Below, in pieces: positions 1 through 8,215 of a DNA stretch of 64,000 nucleotides. Position 1 is the stretch's first letter. Every line of letters begins with the position of its first letter. Source of the DNA: Streptomyces sp. NRRL F-2580 (GTDB taxonomy: Bacteria > Actinomycetota > Actinomycetes > Streptomycetales > Streptomycetaceae); NCBI RefSeq assembly GCF_000720115.1, contig NZ_JOIR01000037.1, forward strand, positions 62,001 to 126,000, in the 5' to 3' direction. A program made the position numbers and the translations under genes. The notes below the pieces were generated by a model. The model worked only from the letters and a program-made list of their open reading frames with translations. It was not told where the DNA came from and did no database searches.

Positions 1-1715
1 GAGATCCACCACACCAGGTCGTAGTCGGCCATGAACCGGTGCACGTACTCCAGCGCCACCTGGGTCTTGCCGACGCCGCCGAGCCCGAACAGGGTTTGCG
101 GCTGCGGCAGCACCACGGCCATGCCGCCGCCGAGCTGGTCGCGCATCCGCTCCAGCACGATGCTGCGCCCGGTGAAACCGGGGTTGCGGGGCGGCGCGTT
201 CCAGATCTTCGGGACGGTCCCCGGGAAGCGGGGGCCCGGCTGGGAGGCGCTGTGGACGCTGTCGGGCAGGGCCATGGGCCGTTCCACCGCGCGCAGCAGG
301 GCGGTGGTGGCGTGCACCTCGTCGAGCCGGAAGAGGTCCACCGGATTGCGGTCGATGTAGGGCGTGGAGAGCCGTACGTCGCCCACCCTCAGCGGGACGA
401 GCTGGCGCCGGCCCCCGGTCGGGTCCTCGGCGGCCGCCCGCTCCCACACGTCCACGGCCCGGGCGGACTTCAGGTAGGCCGTGGAGAGCAGCACCACGGT
501 CCGGGCGGCGGTGTCGATGCTGATGCCCGTCCCGCCGCCGAGGGTGTCCCCCGAGCCGGCGGTCACCGGGGCCCGCTCCGCGGAGACGTCCTTGGGCACG
601 ACCCGGAAGCCGGCCCGGGTGAGGACCGACTCGATCCAGTCGGCCCACATCCGGTTCTCGGCGACGTAGGAGAGGAACAGGTCGGCGGGCAGCGCCGGCC
701 GGCGCCGGGTGAAGGCGTCCCTGATCCGCAGGCGGACCTCCTCGCCGATGACCGGCATGGAGGTGATCTCGCCCTCGGTGACCACGGTGGTGAGCCGCTC
801 GAAGGCGGAGAGCAGGGAGTTGGTGAGCCCGGCCTCGTCGCCGAAGGTGGCCAGGGTCTCCTCGTAGGCGTAGTAGGGCCGGTACGGGATCTCCACCGCG
901 CCCCAGTAGGAGGTGAGCTCGTCCCCGACGAGACCGCCCGGGAAGCGGTCGAACTTGATCCGGGCCAGCGCCCGGCCCGCGTCGGCCTTCTCCTTCTCGC
1001 CCTCGTCGATGCGCATCGGGACGGGGTAGATCTTGATGCCGCGGTCGTTGAACCGCTCGTCGATCTGGCGGGCCACGGACGCGGCGCCGTCGATGGACTG
1101 GTCGGAGAGGGTGAAGCAGTCGACGAGGACGTCCGGGAGGTGCACCGTGCAGATGTCCGCGATGTCGGACAGCCCGGTGCGGCTGTCGATCAGGACGTAG
1201 TCGTAGTTCTCCTTCATGTCGGCGCGTAACGCGTCGAAGAAGAGGCCGCCGCCGAGGCGGTCGTAGAAGTTGTCCCAGTCGAAGGTGGAGACGGTCGCCG
1301 AGTACTCGCGGTTCTGCCGGCCCGCGGAGACGAAGTCCAGGGTGCCGCCTTCCGGGAACTCCCAGCCGAGGGTCTCCGGGGTGAGCGAGACGGCGTGCGG
1401 CTGTATCCGCGCGTAGTCCTTGTGCCAGTCGTCGGCGCGCTGCACCGGGCTGGTCGCGGCCCAGGCGTATTCGCTGATCAGGTCGATGACCCCGGTGGTG
1501 GCCCCGAGCGTGGAGGGGTCCAGGAAGGGGTGGAAGAAGCGGTGCAGGCCCGGGGCCTCCAGGTCCCAGTCCACGGCGAGGACCCGCTTGCCGTTGGCCG
1601 CGAGGATCCAGGCGGTGTTGGCGAGCGCCATGGTGCGGCCCGTGCCGCCCTTGTACGAGTAGAAGGTGACGATGCGTCCGTCACGGGTGTCCCTGCTGTC
1701 ATGACTCGCTGTCAT
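1..1715 (-). CDS. fxsT: FxSxx-COOH system multidomain protein FxsT (partial, C-terminus beyond the left edge)
   Basis: The reading frame opens at an ATG whose first base is 1715 and stays open to the window edge (about 571 residues visible). Three modules can be read. A ParA/MinD-like P-loop region carries KGGTGRT at residues 22-28, followed by VDWDLEAPG. A TIR-like stretch begins FLSYVAENRMWADWIE at about residue 325. An NB-ARC start has the P-loop LFGLGGVGKTQVALEY just before the edge. In this family a tetratricopeptide repeat tail follows, outside the window. The start overlaps the end of fxsC by 17 bases, which implies translational coupling. The layout is STAND/NLR-like, so a sensing or signalling role for the peptide system is plausible but is inference. 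It is incomplete only because of the window boundary. Confidence 0.88.
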   Translation of the reverse strand, partial: MTASHDSRDTRDGRIVTFYSYKGGTGRTMALANTAWILAANGKRVLAVDWDLEAPGLHRFFHPFLDPSTLGATTGVIDLISEYAWAATSPVQRADDWHKDYARIQPHAVSLTPETLGWEFPEGGTLDFVSAGRQNREYSATVSTFDWDNFYDRLGGGLFFDALRADMKENYDYVLIDSRTGLSDIADICTVHLPDVLVDCFTLSDQSIDGAASVARQIDERFNDRGIKIYPVPMRIDEGEKEKADAGRALARIKFDRFPGGLVGDELTSYWGAVEIPYRPYYAYEETLATFGDEAGLTNSLLSAFERLTTVVTEGEITSMPVIGEEVRLRIRDAFTRRRPALPADLFLSYVAENRMWADWIESVLTRAGFRVVPKDVSAERAPVTAGSGDTLGGGTGISIDTAARTVVLLSTAYLKSARAVDVWERAAAEDPTGGRRQLVPLRVGDVRLSTPYIDRNPVDLFRLDEVHATTALLRAVERPMALPDSVHSASQPGPRFPGTVPKIWNAPPRNPGFTGRSIVLERMRDQLGGGMAVVLPQPQTLFGLGGVGKTQVALEYVHRFMADYDLVWWI

Positions 1716-3081
1716 CCGCGTCCCCCCGGTCGGTGTCGTTGCTGTCGTTGCCGTCGATGTGGGTGTCGTACGCGTCGTGGGCGACGTTCGGGAAGGGAGC
1801 CGGCGGCGGTGCGGGCGGCTCGCTCATCCCCATCGGCCCGATCAGCCGAGGGCGTTCGGTGTGGGTGTTGCCGGCCGGCAGGTAGACCTGGGCGTGTCTG
1901 AGGAACTGCTGGGCGGCGGCCTCGACCACCTGGGGCAGGATCTGTCCGAGGGTCTCCATGTTGGCCACGCCGTTGGCGGCGGCCCGGCAGGCGGCCCGGC
2001 CCTGGCTCATCTTGACGGGCAGGGTCTCCTCCAGCCGCCGGGCCAGCTCCGCCTCTTTCGCCCGGCTCTGGTGGTCGTAGCGGTTCCACGGCACGACCAC
2101 GTTGATCCACGGGCGGGACTCCTGGTCGAAGGCGGCCAGGCGCCGGCGGCGGTGCTCGTCCTCCACCACCCAGCGGTCGACGATCAGGATCTCCGGCCGG
2201 GTCGGCGGCTGCTTGCTGTCGAAGTGACCGGCCTCGTCGTCGAAGGAGGACATGGTGGTCTGGTAGTTGAGGTTCTTGATCACGTCCTCGGCGACGTACG
2301 CGATCGGCCGCTGGGACACCGGATGGTACGGATTCCAGTCCAGGGCGCTCTCCCCGTAGTACTCCGGGCTCCGGCCGTCCGGCAGATCGTGCCGGGAGCC
2401 GGCCGCCACGGTCACGTGGAGGGTGCGGGCGGGGCCGCCGCCGGCGCCGCCGGTGCTGCCGGAGGGGCCGAAGGCGCTGGGCACCACGCGGTAGTCCATC
2501 GGGCGGACGGGATCGAGACGGACGGTCTCGGCGACCCGGACGATGCGCCGGGCCAGTTCGTAGACGGCCCGCTCGTACTGCTCGGCGTATCCGCGCAGTT
2601 TGATCAGCCCGTACAGCCCGTCGGTGACGTAGCGCTCGCCGAAGGTGTTGTGGTTGAACTGCAACCGCTCTGCGGGGCCGGGCAGTTGGGAGGGCGCCAC
2701 CGGTACCCACAACGCGGGCACGATGGCCTCGGCGCGCTCGTTGCTCGCCGCGCCGTGCTGGATCGCGCGGTGCGCGAAGGCGAACCATTCCTTCCCGCAC
2801 ATCTCACTGGCGAAGTACCGCGGCGAGAACAGGGGGACGAAGACCCGGCAGGTGGCGAGCGCCGCGCCGAGCCGTTCCGACCAGCCCTCGCCGCTGCGTA
2901 TCTCCCGGTCCATGAAACCGGCCTCGGCGCCGGCGGGCAGGTCCGTCAGCGCCATGACGTGGCCGCAGAGATCGCGGAAGAGGCGCTCCACCCACATGTC
3001 GGGGTCGGGCCCCCCGGCCCCGAATCTCGGTGTGTGCGCATAACTGAGAAAAAAATACGGATGCACTGATGCGGGCAACAC
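1699..3081 (-). CDS. fxsC: TIR-like protein FxsC
   Basis: 460 aa. The N-terminus reads YFFLSYAHTPRF, the usual opening of a TIR domain. It is followed by GFMDREIRSGEGWSERL and VFVPLFSPRYFASEMCGKEW, which matches the region that holds the catalytic glutamate of TIR NADases (here E98). The C-terminal half (about residues 270-410) is a second, uncharacterised domain with PEILIVDRWVVEDE. FxsC proteins are known companions of FxSxx-COOH peptides, and the order fxsA-fxsB-acetyltransferase-fxsC-fxsT supports the name. The gene overlaps fxsT by 17 bases. Whether this TIR domain cleaves NAD or only mediates protein contact cannot be told from sequence. Confidence 0.88.
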   Translation of the reverse strand: MLPASVHPYFFLSYAHTPRFGAGGPDPDMWVERLFRDLCGHVMALTDLPAGAEAGFMDREIRSGEGWSERLGAALATCRVFVPLFSPRYFASEMCGKEWFAFAHRAIQHGAASNERAEAIVPALWVPVAPSQLPGPAERLQFNHNTFGERYVTDGLYGLIKLRGYAEQYERAVYELARRIVRVAETVRLDPVRPMDYRVVPSAFGPSGSTGGAGGGPARTLHVTVAAGSRHDLPDGRSPEYYGESALDWNPYHPVSQRPIAYVAEDVIKNLNYQTTMSSFDDEAGHFDSKQPPTRPEILIVDRWVVEDEHRRRRLAAFDQESRPWINVVVPWNRYDHQSRAKEAELARRLEETLPVKMSQGRAACRAAANGVANMETLGQILPQVVEAAAQQFLRHAQVYLPAGNTHTERPRLIGPMGMSEPPAPPPAPFPNVAHDAYDTHIDGNDSNDTDRGDADDSES

Positions 3082-3158
3082 GCCCCCCGTCCCGAAGCTG
3101 CGAGCGAAGAAACATCATTCCGGAGCTGCTTCGCCACATCCCCTCATCGTCCAGTCAA

Positions 3159-3959
3159 TCAGCGTCTGTTTTCGGTCATCCAGTCAAGGGCGTGGTCAAC
3201 GGCGTCCGGGACGGAGAAGAGCATGGTCGCCGCCCCTGCGACCCGCCCCCTGCGGACCCGGGAATCCGGGAACGTCCGGCCGATCTCCGCGAAATCCCCG
3301 TCGTCGAGCGCGACGTCCTCGTAGGCGGCCCACGCCCCCTCCTGCCCACTCCCTCGCCGCTCCGGAAGGTTCACCTTCACCACACACTCGTACATGCGCA
3401 AGGGGGGCTTCGGAATTCGGTACTCCGCGAGATGGAAAGCCGTGCAGACCGAAAACCCCACATTGATCATGAGTACCTGACCGCCCTCCCAGCACAACTT
3501 TCCCAGCGGTGACTCCTCACCCAGGTGGCTTTCGATGCGGTGCCCGGAACAGAGCCGCTCCGCGTCCGCGCCGAGGGCGGCGAAAGAGGTCTGCGGGTGG
3601 GCGCTGCGCGCTGCGCCCGGCGCGGTGCGCACGGCCTCGGCGAGCGAGCCCATCCCCTGGCTCGGGGTGCCCGCCGGATCGAAGGGGGCCATCCGCTCGC
3701 GGAAGGCCCGCACCCCGGACTCGTCCAGACCGGCGATCCGCTCCAGATGGGCACTGGAGGTCTTGGAGTTCGCCGGAGTGAACGCGGGGACCACCAGGGT
3801 GCCGCGCGGACCGAGCACCCCCGTCAGGGCGTCGCGCAGCTGCTCGGCGCGCAGCCCGGTCCCGCCGAGGCCGGCGTGCACCAAGAGCCGCATCCCGGGG
3901 CGGACCCCGAGCAGCCGCAACTGCACGGCCAGCTGGAGCGTGCCGGTGCCGGCGCTCAC
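3159..3959 (-). CDS. AAC(3)-family N-acetyltransferase within the FxSxx cluster
   Basis: 266 aa, starting at GTG 3959 (VSAGTGTLQLAVQL). It shares GTGA with the stop of fxsB, so the two are translationally coupled; longer open frames upstream are only antisense-like shadow of fxsB. Family signs are the N-terminal LLVHAGLGGTG region, a GTLVVPAFTPANS motif and ARSAHPQTSFAALG, matching the conserved histidine-containing motif of antibiotic N3-acetyltransferases. The usual family member acetylates 2-deoxystreptamine aminoglycosides with acetyl-CoA. In this setting the substrate is more likely the modified FxsA peptide or a linked metabolite, but that is inference. Length is normal for the family. 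Confidence 0.85.
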   Translation of the reverse strand: MSAGTGTLQLAVQLRLLGVRPGMRLLVHAGLGGTGLRAEQLRDALTGVLGPRGTLVVPAFTPANSKTSSAHLERIAGLDESGVRAFRERMAPFDPAGTPSQGMGSLAEAVRTAPGAARSAHPQTSFAALGADAERLCSGHRIESHLGEESPLGKLCWEGGQVLMINVGFSVCTAFHLAEYRIPKPPLRMYECVVKVNLPERRGSGQEGAWAAYEDVALDDGDFAEIGRTFPDSRVRRGRVAGAATMLFSVPDAVDHALDWMTENRR

Positions 3960-6208
3960 GCGTCGACCGCCTTCAGTTCGTAGCGGAGCTCCGCGACGAG
4001 GCGCTTGCCGGTGACGGTCAGCTCGGCCGCCTCCGAGAGGCGGTCCAGGGCCCGGTGGATGCGGTCCGAGCCACCCGGCTCGGGGGCCGCGGTGGCCCGC
4101 CGGTACGCCTCCACCGCCACCCGCTCGTGCACGTCGGCCAGCAGCCGCGACACCGGGACCGGCCGCTCCCGCCACGGCGAGGGGTGCTGCCACTCCCCGT
4201 CCAGCGCGTACAGGTCGGCCACCTCGGTCAAGGCCCGCAGCCGGGTCCGCCGCCGCCCGGTCAGCAGCGCGAGCGCGGTCTCCCGCACCCCCGCCGCGTA
4301 CGGCACCCCGAGCGCCCCCGGACCGTGCCGGCCCGCCTCGCCCCAGCCGCCGGCCCGCGGACCGCCCGCCAGCGGGGTCAGGGTGGTCAGCCCGGCCGCC
4401 GCCGCCCGGGCGAACCCGGGCACCGCCTTGTGCAGCAGCGCCCACGCCCGGTCCAGCCTGCCCCGCCACTCCTCGGCCTCGCCCGTGCCGAGCCGGAGCC
4501 GGGGCGGCCGGGGGAAGCAGTTGCGGTACGGGTCGAGGTCCTCCAGCGCCACCGGGGCCGCGTCCGGCCCGGGCGACCAGGTGCGTACGGGCTGCCAGCG
4601 CGCGTCCCCCGCGGCGGGCCCGAAGCGGTGCTCGGTACGCCCGTCCCGTACGGCGTAACCCTCGTCGGTGACGTGCAGCGCGGCCCGGCCCTCCGTGCCG
4701 GGCTCCCCGAGCCGCAGCAGCCCCAGTGTCGGCAGGTACACCTCCCCGTCCCGGTAGGCCACCTCGGCCGGCAGGTCCAGCCCGCCGCGCAGGACGGCCG
4801 CGACGGCCAGCGCGGTCAGCCTGCGCGCCGCCTCCGGCCCGTCCTGCCGGCCCTCCCGGGCGGCGTCCAGGGCCGCCAGCACCCAGGTCCGGGTGAAGGG
4901 GTGGTCCAGTACGGCGTCCAACGCGTCCGCGCCCGCCTCCCCGGCCTGCTCCACGGCGGCCAGCAGCTCCCAGGCGCGCGCCCAGCCGGGCTCGGCTCCG
5001 AGGTCCGCGTGGAGCCGGGCCAGCAGGATCCGGGTCAGCTCCTCCTGGGAACGGGCGAGTTCGGCCGGATCGGAGAGCTGCGGAGCGGTCTCGCGCAGGG
5101 CCGTGCGGCCCTCGACCCCGTCCACGAGCTCGCGCAGGTCGGTGCAGTAGACGGAGGGGTTGTCGAAGCCGTTCCGGTCGCGGTAGCGGTGGGTGTACAG
5201 CCCGCCGCCGCACGAACGTACGACGGGGCACCGGCGGCACGAGTCGCTGACGCCCGCGAGGCCCAGCTGCCGGGCACGGACCCCGGGATGGGCCGCGACC
5301 TGGTCGAACGTATGGTCGAAGACGTTGAATCCGGTGGCGGCGGCCCCCTCGAAGGCGCTCTTGAGGGAGTCCACCTGCTCCAGGGTCCCGTCGGTCTCGA
5401 CGACGACGAGGTCCGTGGGGGCGAGGCCGAGCGACTCGGTCAGGCTGGGGCCGCCGCGCAGGGTGGAGAGCAGGGACTCGAAGAGCCGTACGGGCACCGG
5501 GCGGCCGAGGCGCTCCCAGTGGTCGAAGACCCGCAGGAGCCAGCGGGCGTACGCGTCGGGGGCGCCGTCGGGGCGGACCGGAGGGGTCTCCCAGGTGGCG
5601 TGCGGAAGGAGGAAGTCCACGCGCGGCGGCTCGAGTTCGACGAGCGCGTCCAGGACGGCCACGGGGTCGTTGGCCACGTCCACGGTGCACAGCAGGCCCT
5701 GGTAGAGGTGGCGGTAGGGCTCCGAGCGGAGCAGCGCGACGGCCGCGAGGACCAGCGGGTGGCTCGTACGGCCGTCCGCGAAGCGGCGGTGGCGGTCGTT
5801 GGCGGCGCGGTCCCCGTCGAGGGAGATGCCCACCCGGACGCCGAACTCGTCGAAGAGGTCGAGGTATCGGGTGCCGAGCTGGAGTCCGTTGGTGTGGATC
5901 CGCAGGTCGAGGTCGGCGGTTCCGGTGAGCGCCCGGCTGAACTCCTCGCACACGAGGCGGAGCCGGGCCGTGCCCGCCAACAGGGGTTCCCCTCCATGGA
6001 GGATCACCGTGACGGAGGGGAGTGCATGGTCACGGGCATGTTCGGCGAGCCTCGACGCAGTATGCGAAATTACCTCGGGGGAGATCACTTTCGGCCGGGC
6101 TCGCCAGCTCTGATCTGCGTGTTCGTAGACATAGCAATGATCACAAGCAAGATCGCATCTGCTGTGAACTTTCAGGACGATCTCGCGAAATGCGATCAGG
6201 CCGGTCAT
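3956..6208 (-). CDS. fxsB: Radical SAM/SPASM cyclophane-forming enzyme FxsB with a degenerate HExxH-type C-terminal domain
   Basis: 750 aa. The radical SAM cluster motif CDLACDHC gives Cys18, Cys22 and Cys25. A SPASM-type cysteine set follows at C324, C327 and C333 plus the later SVYC. Family members are known to form a three-residue cyclophane between the Phe ring and the side chain two residues on in the FxS motif. Residues about 400-750 resemble the HEXXH-motif domain of peptide beta-hydroxylases, with the characteristic SPWRERPVPVSRLLADVHER block. Where the metal-binding HExxH should lie the protein has R642-E-T-A-L646, so this half looks catalytically dead, as in the FxsBH subgroup. It sits 29 bases after fxsA and overlaps the acetyltransferase by 4 bases. 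Confidence 0.92.
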   Translation of the reverse strand: MTGLIAFREIVLKVHSRCDLACDHCYVYEHADQSWRARPKVISPEVISHTASRLAEHARDHALPSVTVILHGGEPLLAGTARLRLVCEEFSRALTGTADLDLRIHTNGLQLGTRYLDLFDEFGVRVGISLDGDRAANDRHRRFADGRTSHPLVLAAVALLRSEPYRHLYQGLLCTVDVANDPVAVLDALVELEPPRVDFLLPHATWETPPVRPDGAPDAYARWLLRVFDHWERLGRPVPVRLFESLLSTLRGGPSLTESLGLAPTDLVVVETDGTLEQVDSLKSAFEGAAATGFNVFDHTFDQVAAHPGVRARQLGLAGVSDSCRRCPVVRSCGGGLYTHRYRDRNGFDNPSVYCTDLRELVDGVEGRTALRETAPQLSDPAELARSQEELTRILLARLHADLGAEPGWARAWELLAAVEQAGEAGADALDAVLDHPFTRTWVLAALDAAREGRQDGPEAARRLTALAVAAVLRGGLDLPAEVAYRDGEVYLPTLGLLRLGEPGTEGRAALHVTDEGYAVRDGRTEHRFGPAAGDARWQPVRTWSPGPDAAPVALEDLDPYRNCFPRPPRLRLGTGEAEEWRGRLDRAWALLHKAVPGFARAAAAGLTTLTPLAGGPRAGGWGEAGRHGPGALGVPYAAGVRETALALLTGRRRTRLRALTEVADLYALDGEWQHPSPWRERPVPVSRLLADVHERVAVEAYRRATAAPEPGGSDRIHRALDRLSEAAELTVTGKRLVAELRYELKAVDA

Positions 6209-6237
6209 TCCACCAGTCTAGAGCGCTTACTTCGGCG

Positions 6238-6402
6238 TCAGAGCGCGGAGTTGAAGATCGGTGCCTGAACCGGACGACCGGATTCAGCCGGCAGTACGCG
6301 ACCGAGCGTCGCCGCCGCGGACGCGGTGTGGACGTCGATCTTGCCGAGCGGGAGCCGGCGGGCCTTGACCGTGCTGGTCGCGGGGGTTGCGGAAGTGTTC
6401 AC
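6238..6402 (-). CDS. fxsA: FxSxx-COOH RiPP precursor peptide FxsA
   Basis: 54 aa from GTG 6402, chosen because AAGGA lies seven bases upstream; an ATG 12 codons earlier (6438) gives a 66-aa alternative with no comparable ribosome binding site. The peptide has a leader with LPLGKIDVHTASAAATLGRV, the usual leader pattern of this family, and ends PIFNSAL. F50-N51-S52-A53-L54 exactly fits the F-x-S-x-x-COOH signature where FxsB installs its crosslink. It is the first gene of the cluster, 29 bases before fxsB. A maturation protease is not evident nearby. Confidence 0.87.
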   Translation of the reverse strand: MNTSATPATSTVKARRLPLGKIDVHTASAAATLGRVLPAESGRPVQAPIFNSAL

Positions 6403-6475
6403 GACACCGTCCTTGGGGAAGCCATGTGGAATGGGCATGTGAATGACAACAGCGACGCGCTGCCGTCAAGCGTGG

Positions 6476-6503
6476 ACTTTACTCGGCCACACCCCATTGG
6501 CAA
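6476..6503 (-). promoter_or_regulatory. Candidate promoter of the fxs cluster
   Basis: On the minus strand TTGCCA (6503-6498) and TAAAGT (6481-6476) are separated by 16 bases, a plausible vegetative sigma factor site. It would give a leader of roughly 65 bases before the fxsA GTG. Found by eye only; TTGACG near 6465 is a second, weaker -35 candidate. Confidence 0.4.
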
Positions 6504-6624
6504 CCGAGACATGACGCCTGGTCAACCGTTCTATGGCAAGCCCGGGGTATTTCTCGACGTGGCTTATTCGGCCGTTCGCCGGACGGCAAGATCCTTTTCT
6601 TCCACCGGCGGACCCGGACCGGAT

Positions 6625-6728: not shown

Positions 6729-7316
6729 ATGACCACGCCGCCCCTGATCCTCCTGCTGTCCGGAAGCCTGCGCGCCGGTTCTTCCAACGAAGCGGTGCTG
6801 CGCACCGCCCAGGCCGTCGCCGCCGAGCCCCCCGCCCGCCTGCGCACCGTCCTGTACGACGGCCTGGCGACGCTGCCGCACTTCAACCCCGATGACGACG
6901 CTGACCCGTTGCCCGGCCCGGTGGCCGGGCTGCGCGCGGCGATCGCCGGGGCGGACGCGATTCTGGTCTGCACCCCGGAGTACGCGGGCACCCTGCCGGG
7001 ATCGTTCAAGAACCTCCTGGACTGGACGGTCGGCGGTACCGAGATCGGCGACAAGCCCGTGGGCTGGGTGAACGCCGCCGCCCCGGGCCGCGGCGGGGGC
7101 GCGGAGGCCACGCTGCGCACGGTCCTCGGCTACACCGGCGCGGCGGTGGTGGAGGAGGCCTGCGTACGGATCCCGGTTTCCGGGGCGATGTACGGCGGGG
7201 ACGGGACGGTCGCCGACCCGGAGGTCCGGGCGCGCATCGGCGAGGTGCTCGGCGTACTGGCCGGCTGGGACGGTCCCGACGGTCCGGACCACCCCGACGG
7301 CTCCGACGGGGTCTAG
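6729..7316 (+). CDS. NADPH-dependent FMN reductase family protein
   Basis: 195 aa flavodoxin-like reductase. The FMN phosphate-binding loop is LLSGSLRAGSSNEAVLR at residues 9-25, and the family's flavin-contact motif appears as TPEYAGTLPGSFKNLLDWT. Members transfer electrons from NAD(P)H to FMN or to quinone, azo or chromate-type acceptors; the true substrate here is unknown. The C-terminus is a low-complexity GPDGPDHPDGSDG tail. It converges on the hydrolase gene and the two overlap by 4 bases at their ends. No obvious ribosome binding site precedes the ATG, consistent with leaderless expression. Confidence 0.88.
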   Translation: MTTPPLILLLSGSLRAGSSNEAVLRTAQAVAAEPPARLRTVLYDGLATLPHFNPDDDADPLPGPVAGLRAAIAGADAILVCTPEYAGTLPGSFKNLLDWTVGGTEIGDKPVGWVNAAAPGRGGGAEATLRTVLGYTGAAVVEEACVRIPVSGAMYGGDGTVADPEVRARIGEVLGVLAGWDGPDGPDHPDGSDGV

Positions 7317-8215
7317 GCGGGCTGCTGTTCGCTGAGCGGCGGGATGGGCAGGTCGCGCAGGAGCCAGTTGAGTACGTCGGGCAGTGCGCGCAGGGCCGCG
7401 AAGTGCGCGGCGGCCGGCTCGATGGCGGTGGTGGCCCCCGGGATGCGGCGGGCCAGCCAGCGGGAATGGCCCACGGGGGAGAACACGTCCAGCTCCCCGT
7501 GCCAGATCAGCACCGGACAGCGGATGTCGGCCGGGTCGAAGCCCCAGGGGCGGCTGAAGGCGAGGACGTCGTCGATCCAGCCGTACGCCGAATGGCGCAG
7601 CCCCTCACGGTAGTTCCGCAGCAGCATCGACCGCAGGCCCGCATCCGCGACGATCATGCGGTCGTTGTCGGTGAGCTCCCGGCGCAACTCGTCCAGCAGC
7701 CGGCCGGGGTCCTTGCGGATGCCGTCGGCGCGGGGGATCAGCCGGGCCGCCAGCTCCTCGGGGTCGGTGGTGGCGGTGGTGTACTCCTTGACGTTCGACG
7801 CGGCCATCCCGGCGAACCAGTCCAGGTCCTCCGCGTCCCGGGGGGCCAGGCCGACCATCGCCGCGGTCCGGGTGACCCGGTCCGGGAGCAGGGCGGCGCA
7901 GGCGAGGGCTCCGGCGGCGCCGCCGGAGCGGCCGGCCACCGCGAACGTGTCCAGGCCGAGGGCGTCGGCGACGGCGGCCACGTCCTGGGCCACGTCGGCG
8001 ACGGTGCGGCCCACATGCCTATCGGAGCCGCCGTAGCCGGGTCTGTCGTAGGCGATGAGCTGCATGCGGCGTTGGTAGAGGACCATCCCCCGGGGGGCGG
8101 GGCCCAGGCGGCTGCCGGGCATTCCGTGGAGCAGGAAGACGGGTTTGCCGTCGGGATCGCCCCAGCGCTCCACGGTCAGAGAACGTCCGTCCGCTGTGCG
8201 CACCTGATTGCGCAC
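7313..8215 (-). CDS. Alpha/beta fold hydrolase
   Basis: 300 aa starting at GTG 8215, with AAGGAGGG five bases upstream. HGMPGSR forms the oxyanion-hole region, AGRSGGAAG is the nucleophile elbow (serine in G-x-S-x-G form), and a histidine in AAAHFAAL near the C-terminus completes a likely triad with the aspartate in HGELDVFSP. No signal peptide, so cytoplasmic. The substrate cannot be assigned; the family includes esterases, epoxide hydrolases and proline iminopeptidase-like enzymes. It overlaps the FMN reductase stop by 4 bases. Confidence 0.87.
   Translation of the reverse strand: MRNQVRTADGRSLTVERWGDPDGKPVFLLHGMPGSRLGPAPRGMVLYQRRMQLIAYDRPGYGGSDRHVGRTVADVAQDVAAVADALGLDTFAVAGRSGGAAGALACAALLPDRVTRTAAMVGLAPRDAEDLDWFAGMAASNVKEYTTATTDPEELAARLIPRADGIRKDPGRLLDELRRELTDNDRMIVADAGLRSMLLRNYREGLRHSAYGWIDDVLAFSRPWGFDPADIRCPVLIWHGELDVFSPVGHSRWLARRIPGATTAIEPAAAHFAALRALPDVLNWLLRDLPIPPLSEQQPA

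Follow-up and report, generated by a model that had tools for sequence, protein, structure and literature searches.

A 64,000-nucleotide stretch of the Streptomyces sp. NRRL F-2580 genome (G000:C37:62001-126000, hereafter the window; the genome has 8.4 Mb in 156 contigs) carries a five-gene FxSxx-COOH peptide cluster in which the catalytic glutamate of the TIR domain is kept in FxsC and lost from its linked partner FxsT. On these motifs, TIR catalysis seems to be split, with the enzymatic work passed from a pseudo-TIR sensor, FxsT, to FxsC. We regard as about evenly balanced the proposal that the cluster represents the actinobacterial conflict type of stand-alone FxSxx-COOH peptide system and would work as a two-part NLR-like device. 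An intracellular conflict or sensing system is most likely, rather than a secreted antibiotic; the sequence-only reading of this DNA had also preferred sensing, signalling or conflict to a simple secreted antibiotic, and a similar interpretation is found in the FxSxx section of PMC7159879 (eLife 2020). Beyond the view of that earlier reading were the TIR split and two further partners, a SLATT protein and an alpha/beta-hydrolase. The glutamate split appears to be new within the openly licensed literature searched, a scope that applies to all statements of novelty below.

The five-gene cluster is real, and its NCBIfam matches lie far above chance. On the minus strand, 5' to 3', fxsA, fxsB, an AAC(3)-like acyltransferase gene, fxsC and fxsT are closely packed, with a 17-base overlap of fxsC and fxsT and an overlap of the fxsB stop with the GTG start of the acyltransferase gene (GTGA). 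FxsA, FxsB, FxsC and FxsT are named above curated cut-offs, and the acyltransferase is not named. The scores were 583.9 bits for FxsB with TIGR04269 (cut-off 370), 237 and 216.3 bits for FxsC (cut-offs 130 and 55), 1056 bits with NF040586 (cut-off 300) and 147.7 bits with NF047398 for FxsT, and 30.7 bits for FxsA with TIGR04268 (cut-off 28), scored on the longer ATG form 6238-6438. One tight operon with a precursor ending in F-N-S-A-L, belonging to a known class, was what the sequence-only reading had described; all five genes are present as it said, and the class is the one treated in the FxSxx section of PMC7159879. Its description of the cluster as complete needs correction for the window: fxsT crosses the window edge with 571 of its 1330 codons inside (the remainder was read from the same contig), the SLATT gene lies outside the window, and the hydrolase gene lies beyond the range it covered.

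Comparisons were performed on two sets of loci. Set one comprised the window locus and 60 loci picked from a family-wide listing, 44 above and 16 below the NF040587 cut-off, and set two comprised the nearest FxsC loci of GTDB genomes, namely the best 80 of 426 stretches encoding a relative. At least eight loci are common to both sets, which together hold 141 loci, the window included. Co-occurrence was counted in 121 Streptomyces genomes with thresholds of E <= 1e-30 for FxsC and SLATT and E <= 1e-70 for the hydrolase. Among the matches listed, the nearest named FxsC proteins were from S. yangpuensis, S. virginiae, S. lavendulae and others, at up to 88% identity, and an FxsC from an unclassified Streptomyces was 98% identical to that of the window. 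The order of the fxs genes was kept across the compared relatives. FxsA ended in FNSAL, FSSAL or FNSSL in all 77 loci with a whole fxsB (set two and the window; four loci were cut by contig ends), and F-x-S-x-x closed the precursor in 59 of the 61 set one loci, the precursor of L073 not being found by the pattern and that of L087 ending otherwise. Neither of the two outcomes that had been named beforehand as refuting the assignment, loss of F-x-S in orthologous precursors or absence of conserved linkage, occurred.

FxsC has a TIR fold. The catalytic TIR glutamate was found in FxsC of 59 of 60 set one loci, its position being set by the motif together with a weak alignment; it was invariant in 89 aligned FxsC proteins and present in all 217 listed homologues readable by pattern (the other 5 of 222 were unread), and it aligns weakly with a glutamate of the TIR protein 3h16 (E 0.024). 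The C-terminal half of FxsC gave no distinctive fold match among the rows listed, and the candidate starts of the protein are at 3081 and 3066. FxsT, which starts at 1715 and has 1330 amino acids, consists of AAA, TIR (TIR_2), NB-ARC and TPR parts; the NB-ARC carries an intact GLGGVGKT, and the TPRs resemble those of kinesin light chain (E 1.1e-19). The P-loop of the AAA domain reads KGGTGRT, with lysine replaced by arginine, identically in 59 of 59 readable FxsC-linked FxsT proteins, so this first domain is conserved but probably no ordinary ATPase. The TIR glutamate was present in none of 59 FxsC-linked FxsT proteins, whereas it was kept in 16 of 18 from FxSxx loci without FxsC.

Direct observations cover the genes present, their homology, the motifs kept and lost, linkage and co-occurrence, and the following course of events is proposed on top of them. 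By homology, FxsB would build a cyclophane by joining a phenylalanine and a serine close to the C-terminus of FxsA. The peptide may also be acylated by the AAC(3)-like enzyme; as the operon has no dedicated exporter, the modified peptide most likely remains inside the cell. FxsT, a STAND protein, would monitor the modified peptide, and its kinesin-light-chain-like TPRs could hold it. A disturbance would then cause FxsT to oligomerise, its TIR domain without the catalytic glutamate would serve as an adaptor, and FxsC, a TIR protein with the intact motif, would be recruited and either destroy nicotinamide adenine dinucleotide (NAD) or make a nucleotide signal. The SLATT membrane protein may be a second effector that acts as a pore. 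A more specific version, which we put forward only tentatively, is that FxsC operons may be two-component bacterial NLRs, in which a STAND sensor with a dead TIR recruits a TIR enzyme, a ring-locked self-peptide arms the sensor, and a pore formed by SLATT and a hydrolase dedicated to the system are further parts; the combination of dead sensor and active partner would set this class apart from the ternary FxSxx systems, in which a single protein is both sensor and enzyme.

The same genes might instead serve signalling, with the cyclophane peptide as an intracellular or developmental cue read by FxsT and FxsC making a nucleotide messenger without any killing, a reading that we consider possible but rather doubtful. 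TIR enzymes can make signals. The fxs operon is found at one chromosomal address in many Streptomyces, and no plasmid record covering 80% of fxsA-fxsB-AAC was found. In its FxSxx section, PMC7159879 describes stand-alone FxSxx operons, read as 'peptide toxin or signal', thereby leaving the choice open, and reports CRP-like regulators linked in some loci. Patchy presence, with FxsC in 43 of the 121 Streptomyces genomes, fits accessory defence better than core development.

Two partners of FxsC were apparent from linkage and co-occurrence. A gene for a protein with SLATT_3 and SLATT_1 matches lies directly after fxsT, its two likeliest start candidates being ~70-85 bases past the fxsT stop, and it is the sole SLATT_3 match in the genome. 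SLATT adjoined the operon in 78 of the 80 set two loci (one copy, in L152, truncated; both misses on cut contigs) and was found in 50 of the 61 set one loci, mostly with 19 kb read: 45 of 50 in which the fused FxsB domain has lost HExxH and 5 of 11 in which HExxH is intact. The hydrolase (PF00561), in which the serine, aspartate and histidine of a putative triad are visible, was located beside fxs in 134 of the 140 FxsC loci of both sets, and five of the six misses fell on contigs 6-14 kb long, with one genome accounting for two of them. SLATT occurred in 34 of 43 genomes with FxsC versus 3 of 78 without it, the latter three being only 31-33% identical, and the hydrolase in 39 of 43 versus 6 of 78 (Fisher's test, 2e-18 and 9e-21, respectively, uncorrected for descent). 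The distance between hydrolase and FxsC was 4.8-9.6 kb in all 37 genomes with positions compared, out of 39 having both. In 21 ternary or similar FxsT loci without FxsC (L004 and L126-L145), neither SLATT nor the hydrolase gave a match above 70 bits. All these indicated that SLATT and the hydrolase go with FxsC, a link that also appears new.

It is unlikely that these links reflect chromosomal synteny and not function. Trypsin-like and acyl-CoA dehydrogenase genes border the same place in many loci, and in the six FxsC-less genomes with a hydrolase this gene adjoins the trypsin landmark, with no fxs match there in five of them. However, the hydrolase adjoins fxs in 26 loci (one of them a short contig) that show no trypsin landmark, so synteny alone is insufficient for the hydrolase link. 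Moreover, the hydrolase is absent from 72 of the 78 FxsC-less genomes although trypsin relatives occur in 119 of the 121, and the FxsC-less copies are just 54-61% identical.

The sixth of these genomes, G345 (L226:9342-12778), has kept fxsA (ending FNSSL) and an entire fxsB, and its hydrolase occupies the same chromosomal address. The 18 kb read there showed no FxsC, FxsT, SLATT or AAC, as would result from a single loss of the effector part. A flagged TGA had suggested that its hydrolase was a pseudogene, which was dropped, the frame being open for 286 amino acids. Separately, locus L071 has fxsB and SLATT with only fragments of FxsT, and FxsC was not seen; it is perhaps a decaying copy.

That FxsC and FxsT are both scaffolds without NADase activity, leaving SLATT or the hydrolase as the effector, seems improbable. 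Many TIRs act as scaffolds, and both the complete loss of the glutamate from FxsC-linked FxsT and the SLATT linkage in nearly all of the nearest loci are in line with such an arrangement. The glutamate of FxsC is nevertheless near-invariant in the set one loci and without exception in the readable homologues, and a mere scaffold would not need it.

Several observations weigh against the NLR-like reading. Foldseek alone gave no match for FxsC at E <= 0.001, and a profile of FxsC found none among PDB sequences at E <= 0.1. The predicted model of the N-terminal part of FxsT had a pLDDT (predicted local distance difference test) of 52.1, too poor for use. The TIR split possibly goes back to one old event, and the glutamate counts are therefore not independent. 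SLATT is non-essential, since it is absent from 9 of 43 FxsC genomes and from 6 of 11 HExxH-intact loci (~19 kb). With PADLOC, neither FxsC nor the acyltransferase nor SLATT was matched, and matches were only partial for FxsT (PDC-M28B; Csx1/Csm6 at E 0.035) and FxsB (pVip). In addition, a fusion of AAC(3) with FxsC was seen only on contigs up to 4.4 kb.

A secreted antibiotic of the ribosomally synthesized and post-translationally modified peptide (RiPP) type, with FxsC, FxsT and SLATT for immunity or regulation, is very improbable: FxsB comes from a known RiPP maturase family and the nearby serine hydrolase could act on the product, but the operon has no transporter, dedicated exporter or annotated protease gene, and the short C-terminus of FxsA varies little across the 77 loci, unlike a diversifying antibiotic core. 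The absence of transporter and protease had been noticed in the sequence-only reading and stands for the operon. A scan of the flanking frames located two genes farther out than SLATT, one trypsin-like and one for an MFS transporter, and both are ordinary neighbours because they are also present in FxsC-less genomes, the MFS gene at the same place in L226, L228, L229, L236 and L238. The trypsin-like gene is a chromosomal landmark, given its relatives in nearly all genomes, with or without FxsC, and was rejected on this ground as a missing maturation protease.

All 61 set one loci had the CxxxCxxC radical SAM motif in FxsB. The window FxsB matches NF040587, the 'inactivated beta-hydroxylase extension form', with 419.9 bits (cut-off 225), and scored 34 bits with TIGR04267, under the cut-off of 40. 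The HE..H positions of its fused hydroxylase domain are occupied by T, G and R, so that the HExxH motif is missing and the domain is predicted to be dead; this loss is an already-curated NCBIfam form and thus no discovery. The best PDB relatives of FxsB were ChlB (9gm3) for the radical SAM part and 22nu for residues 384-743. The acyltransferase belongs to Antibiotic_NAT/AAC(3) (PF02522, 216.5 bits), with no GNAT family among the matches. With the AAC_3 equivalog it scored 134.6 bits, under the cut-off of 270, and does not qualify as an aminoglycoside resistance enzyme. Its closest solved relative is FrbF (3sma), which we take to be a biosynthetic rather than a resistance enzyme. The gene is optional, being present in 35 of the 80 set two and 36 of the 61 set one loci. 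Acyltransferase as a substitute for the lost hydroxylase was rejected, since AAC was found in 7 of 11 HExxH-intact versus 29 of 50 HExxH-lost loci.

Judging from start patterns, GTG at 6402, which is preceded by AAGGA and was also the start taken in the sequence-only reading, is a better start of fxsA than the alternative ATG at 6438, which falls outside the conserved part. The start pattern was readable in 46 of the 141 loci, with GTG in 41 and a suitably spaced purine-rich triplet in 45. Further upstream, the conserved DNA at 6474-6525 (CTCGGTTGCCAA ... GAGTAAAGTCC) is promoter-like.

Most relatives have trypsin first, followed by SLATT (reverse), the genes from fxsA to fxsT (forward) and the hydrolase (reverse). 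In the inverted order the hydrolase is found upstream of fxsA, with the trypsin landmark past fxsT, an arrangement observed in the window, in 5 further set one loci and in 23 set two loci (two genomes in both sets). From this gene order, fxsA-fxsT is read as flipped between the same neighbours in the window's clade, and the flip, too, appears new. SLATT follows fxsT in 25 of the 80 set two loci, two of which are cut before the hydrolase. The FMN reductase gene between hydrolase and fxsA was rejected as a member of the system, as it occurred in 4 of 141 loci, two being one genome.

Table 1. Positions of the fxs genes and adjoining features in the window.
Feature	Position	Strand	Basis
fxsA, FxSxx-COOH precursor, 54 amino acids, ends F-N-S-A-L	6238..6402	-	TIGR04268; GTG start with AAGGA upstream
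Putative promoter-like stretch upstream of fxsA	6474..6525	-	Consensus of 46 readable upstream regions of 141 loci
fxsB, radical SAM/SPASM cyclophane maturase with fused degenerate HExxH (beta-hydroxylase) domain, 750 amino acids	3956..6208	-	TIGR04269, NF040587
AAC(3)-like (Antibiotic_NAT) acyltransferase, 266 amino acids, optional operon member	3159..3959	-	PF02522
fxsC, TIR with catalytic-type Glu and C-terminal alpha/beta domain, up to 460 amino acids	1699..3081	-	
fxsT, first 571 of 1330 codons: KGGTGRT AAA, pseudo-TIR, start of NB-ARC	1..1715	-	NF040586, NF047398; whole gene G000:C37:59723-63715
Alpha/beta-hydrolase, candidate further component	7313..8215	-	PF00561; linkage to fxs
NADPH-dependent FMN reductase, between hydrolase and fxsA	6729..7316		

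Among known systems, the closest description found in the openly licensed literature, and the only one treating this operon type, is the stand-alone system with MinD/ParA-AP-ATPase in PMC7159879, which like the present cluster is actinobacterial and has an FxSxx precursor, a radical SAM/SPASM enzyme and an AP-ATPase with TPRs and a MinD/ParA-like domain. In its FxSxx section, none of FxsC, the acyltransferase, SLATT and the hydrolase is named as a partner, and the HExxH domain is considered a peptidase, whereas the window operon has lost this motif. All core genes here pass the cut-offs of the NCBIfam FxSxx set (TIGR04268, TIGR04269, NF040587, NF040588, TIGR04276 and NF040586), whose models, as given in the match tables, name neither the acyltransferase nor SLATT nor the hydrolase and are silent on TIR catalysis. 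ChlB/ChlH (Morishita 2024, as described in PMC12636437), fused radical SAM and alpha-ketoglutarate-HExxH enzymes, share the fused architecture of the window FxsB, in which, however, the hydroxylase motif is lost. Bacterial and plant TIR immune proteins (SPARTA TIR-APAZ, RUN1 and RPP1) are also among the closest known systems. Ternary FxSxx loci, with a SAV_2336 protein and a MoxR-like AAA-type ATPase, share FxsA, the radical SAM enzyme and the TIR-STAND-TPR FxsT. One of them is the second FxSxx locus of the same genome, L004 (G000:C9:28001-48000), which carries an FxsA ending in AFDSGVA, a radical SAM enzyme, an FxsT with intact glutamate, a SAV_2336 protein, an AAA-type ATPase (weak match) and an HEVQH protein (TIGR04267, 133.7 bits, cut-off 40) that is encoded by a separate gene and not fused.

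FxsC was also found in fusions. One listed homologue (P0204) is fused to AAC(3), three (P0048, P0050 and P0051) to a SAV_2336-like domain, whole or partial and under the model cut-off, and P0145, on a 4 kb contig and perhaps rearranged or misassembled, to FxsT-type TPRs. The same genome carries on C42 (L239:8651-11494) a SAV_2336-FxsC fusion with both parts above cut-offs and the glutamate intact, and no other fxs match was found in the 19.5 kb read there. These fusions would tie FxsC to acyltransferase and SAV_2336-type systems, and FxsC therefore looks like a module serving more than one kind of system.

If the NLR-like reading is true, an NLR-like machine would guard the modified self-peptide as its ligand, and RiPP chemistry would be joined to innate immunity. 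The TIR split leads to a sharp prediction, in which a single glutamate of FxsC would account for the enzyme activity and FxsT would function only together with FxsC. The links to SLATT and the hydrolase lengthen the list of parts for heterologous tests.

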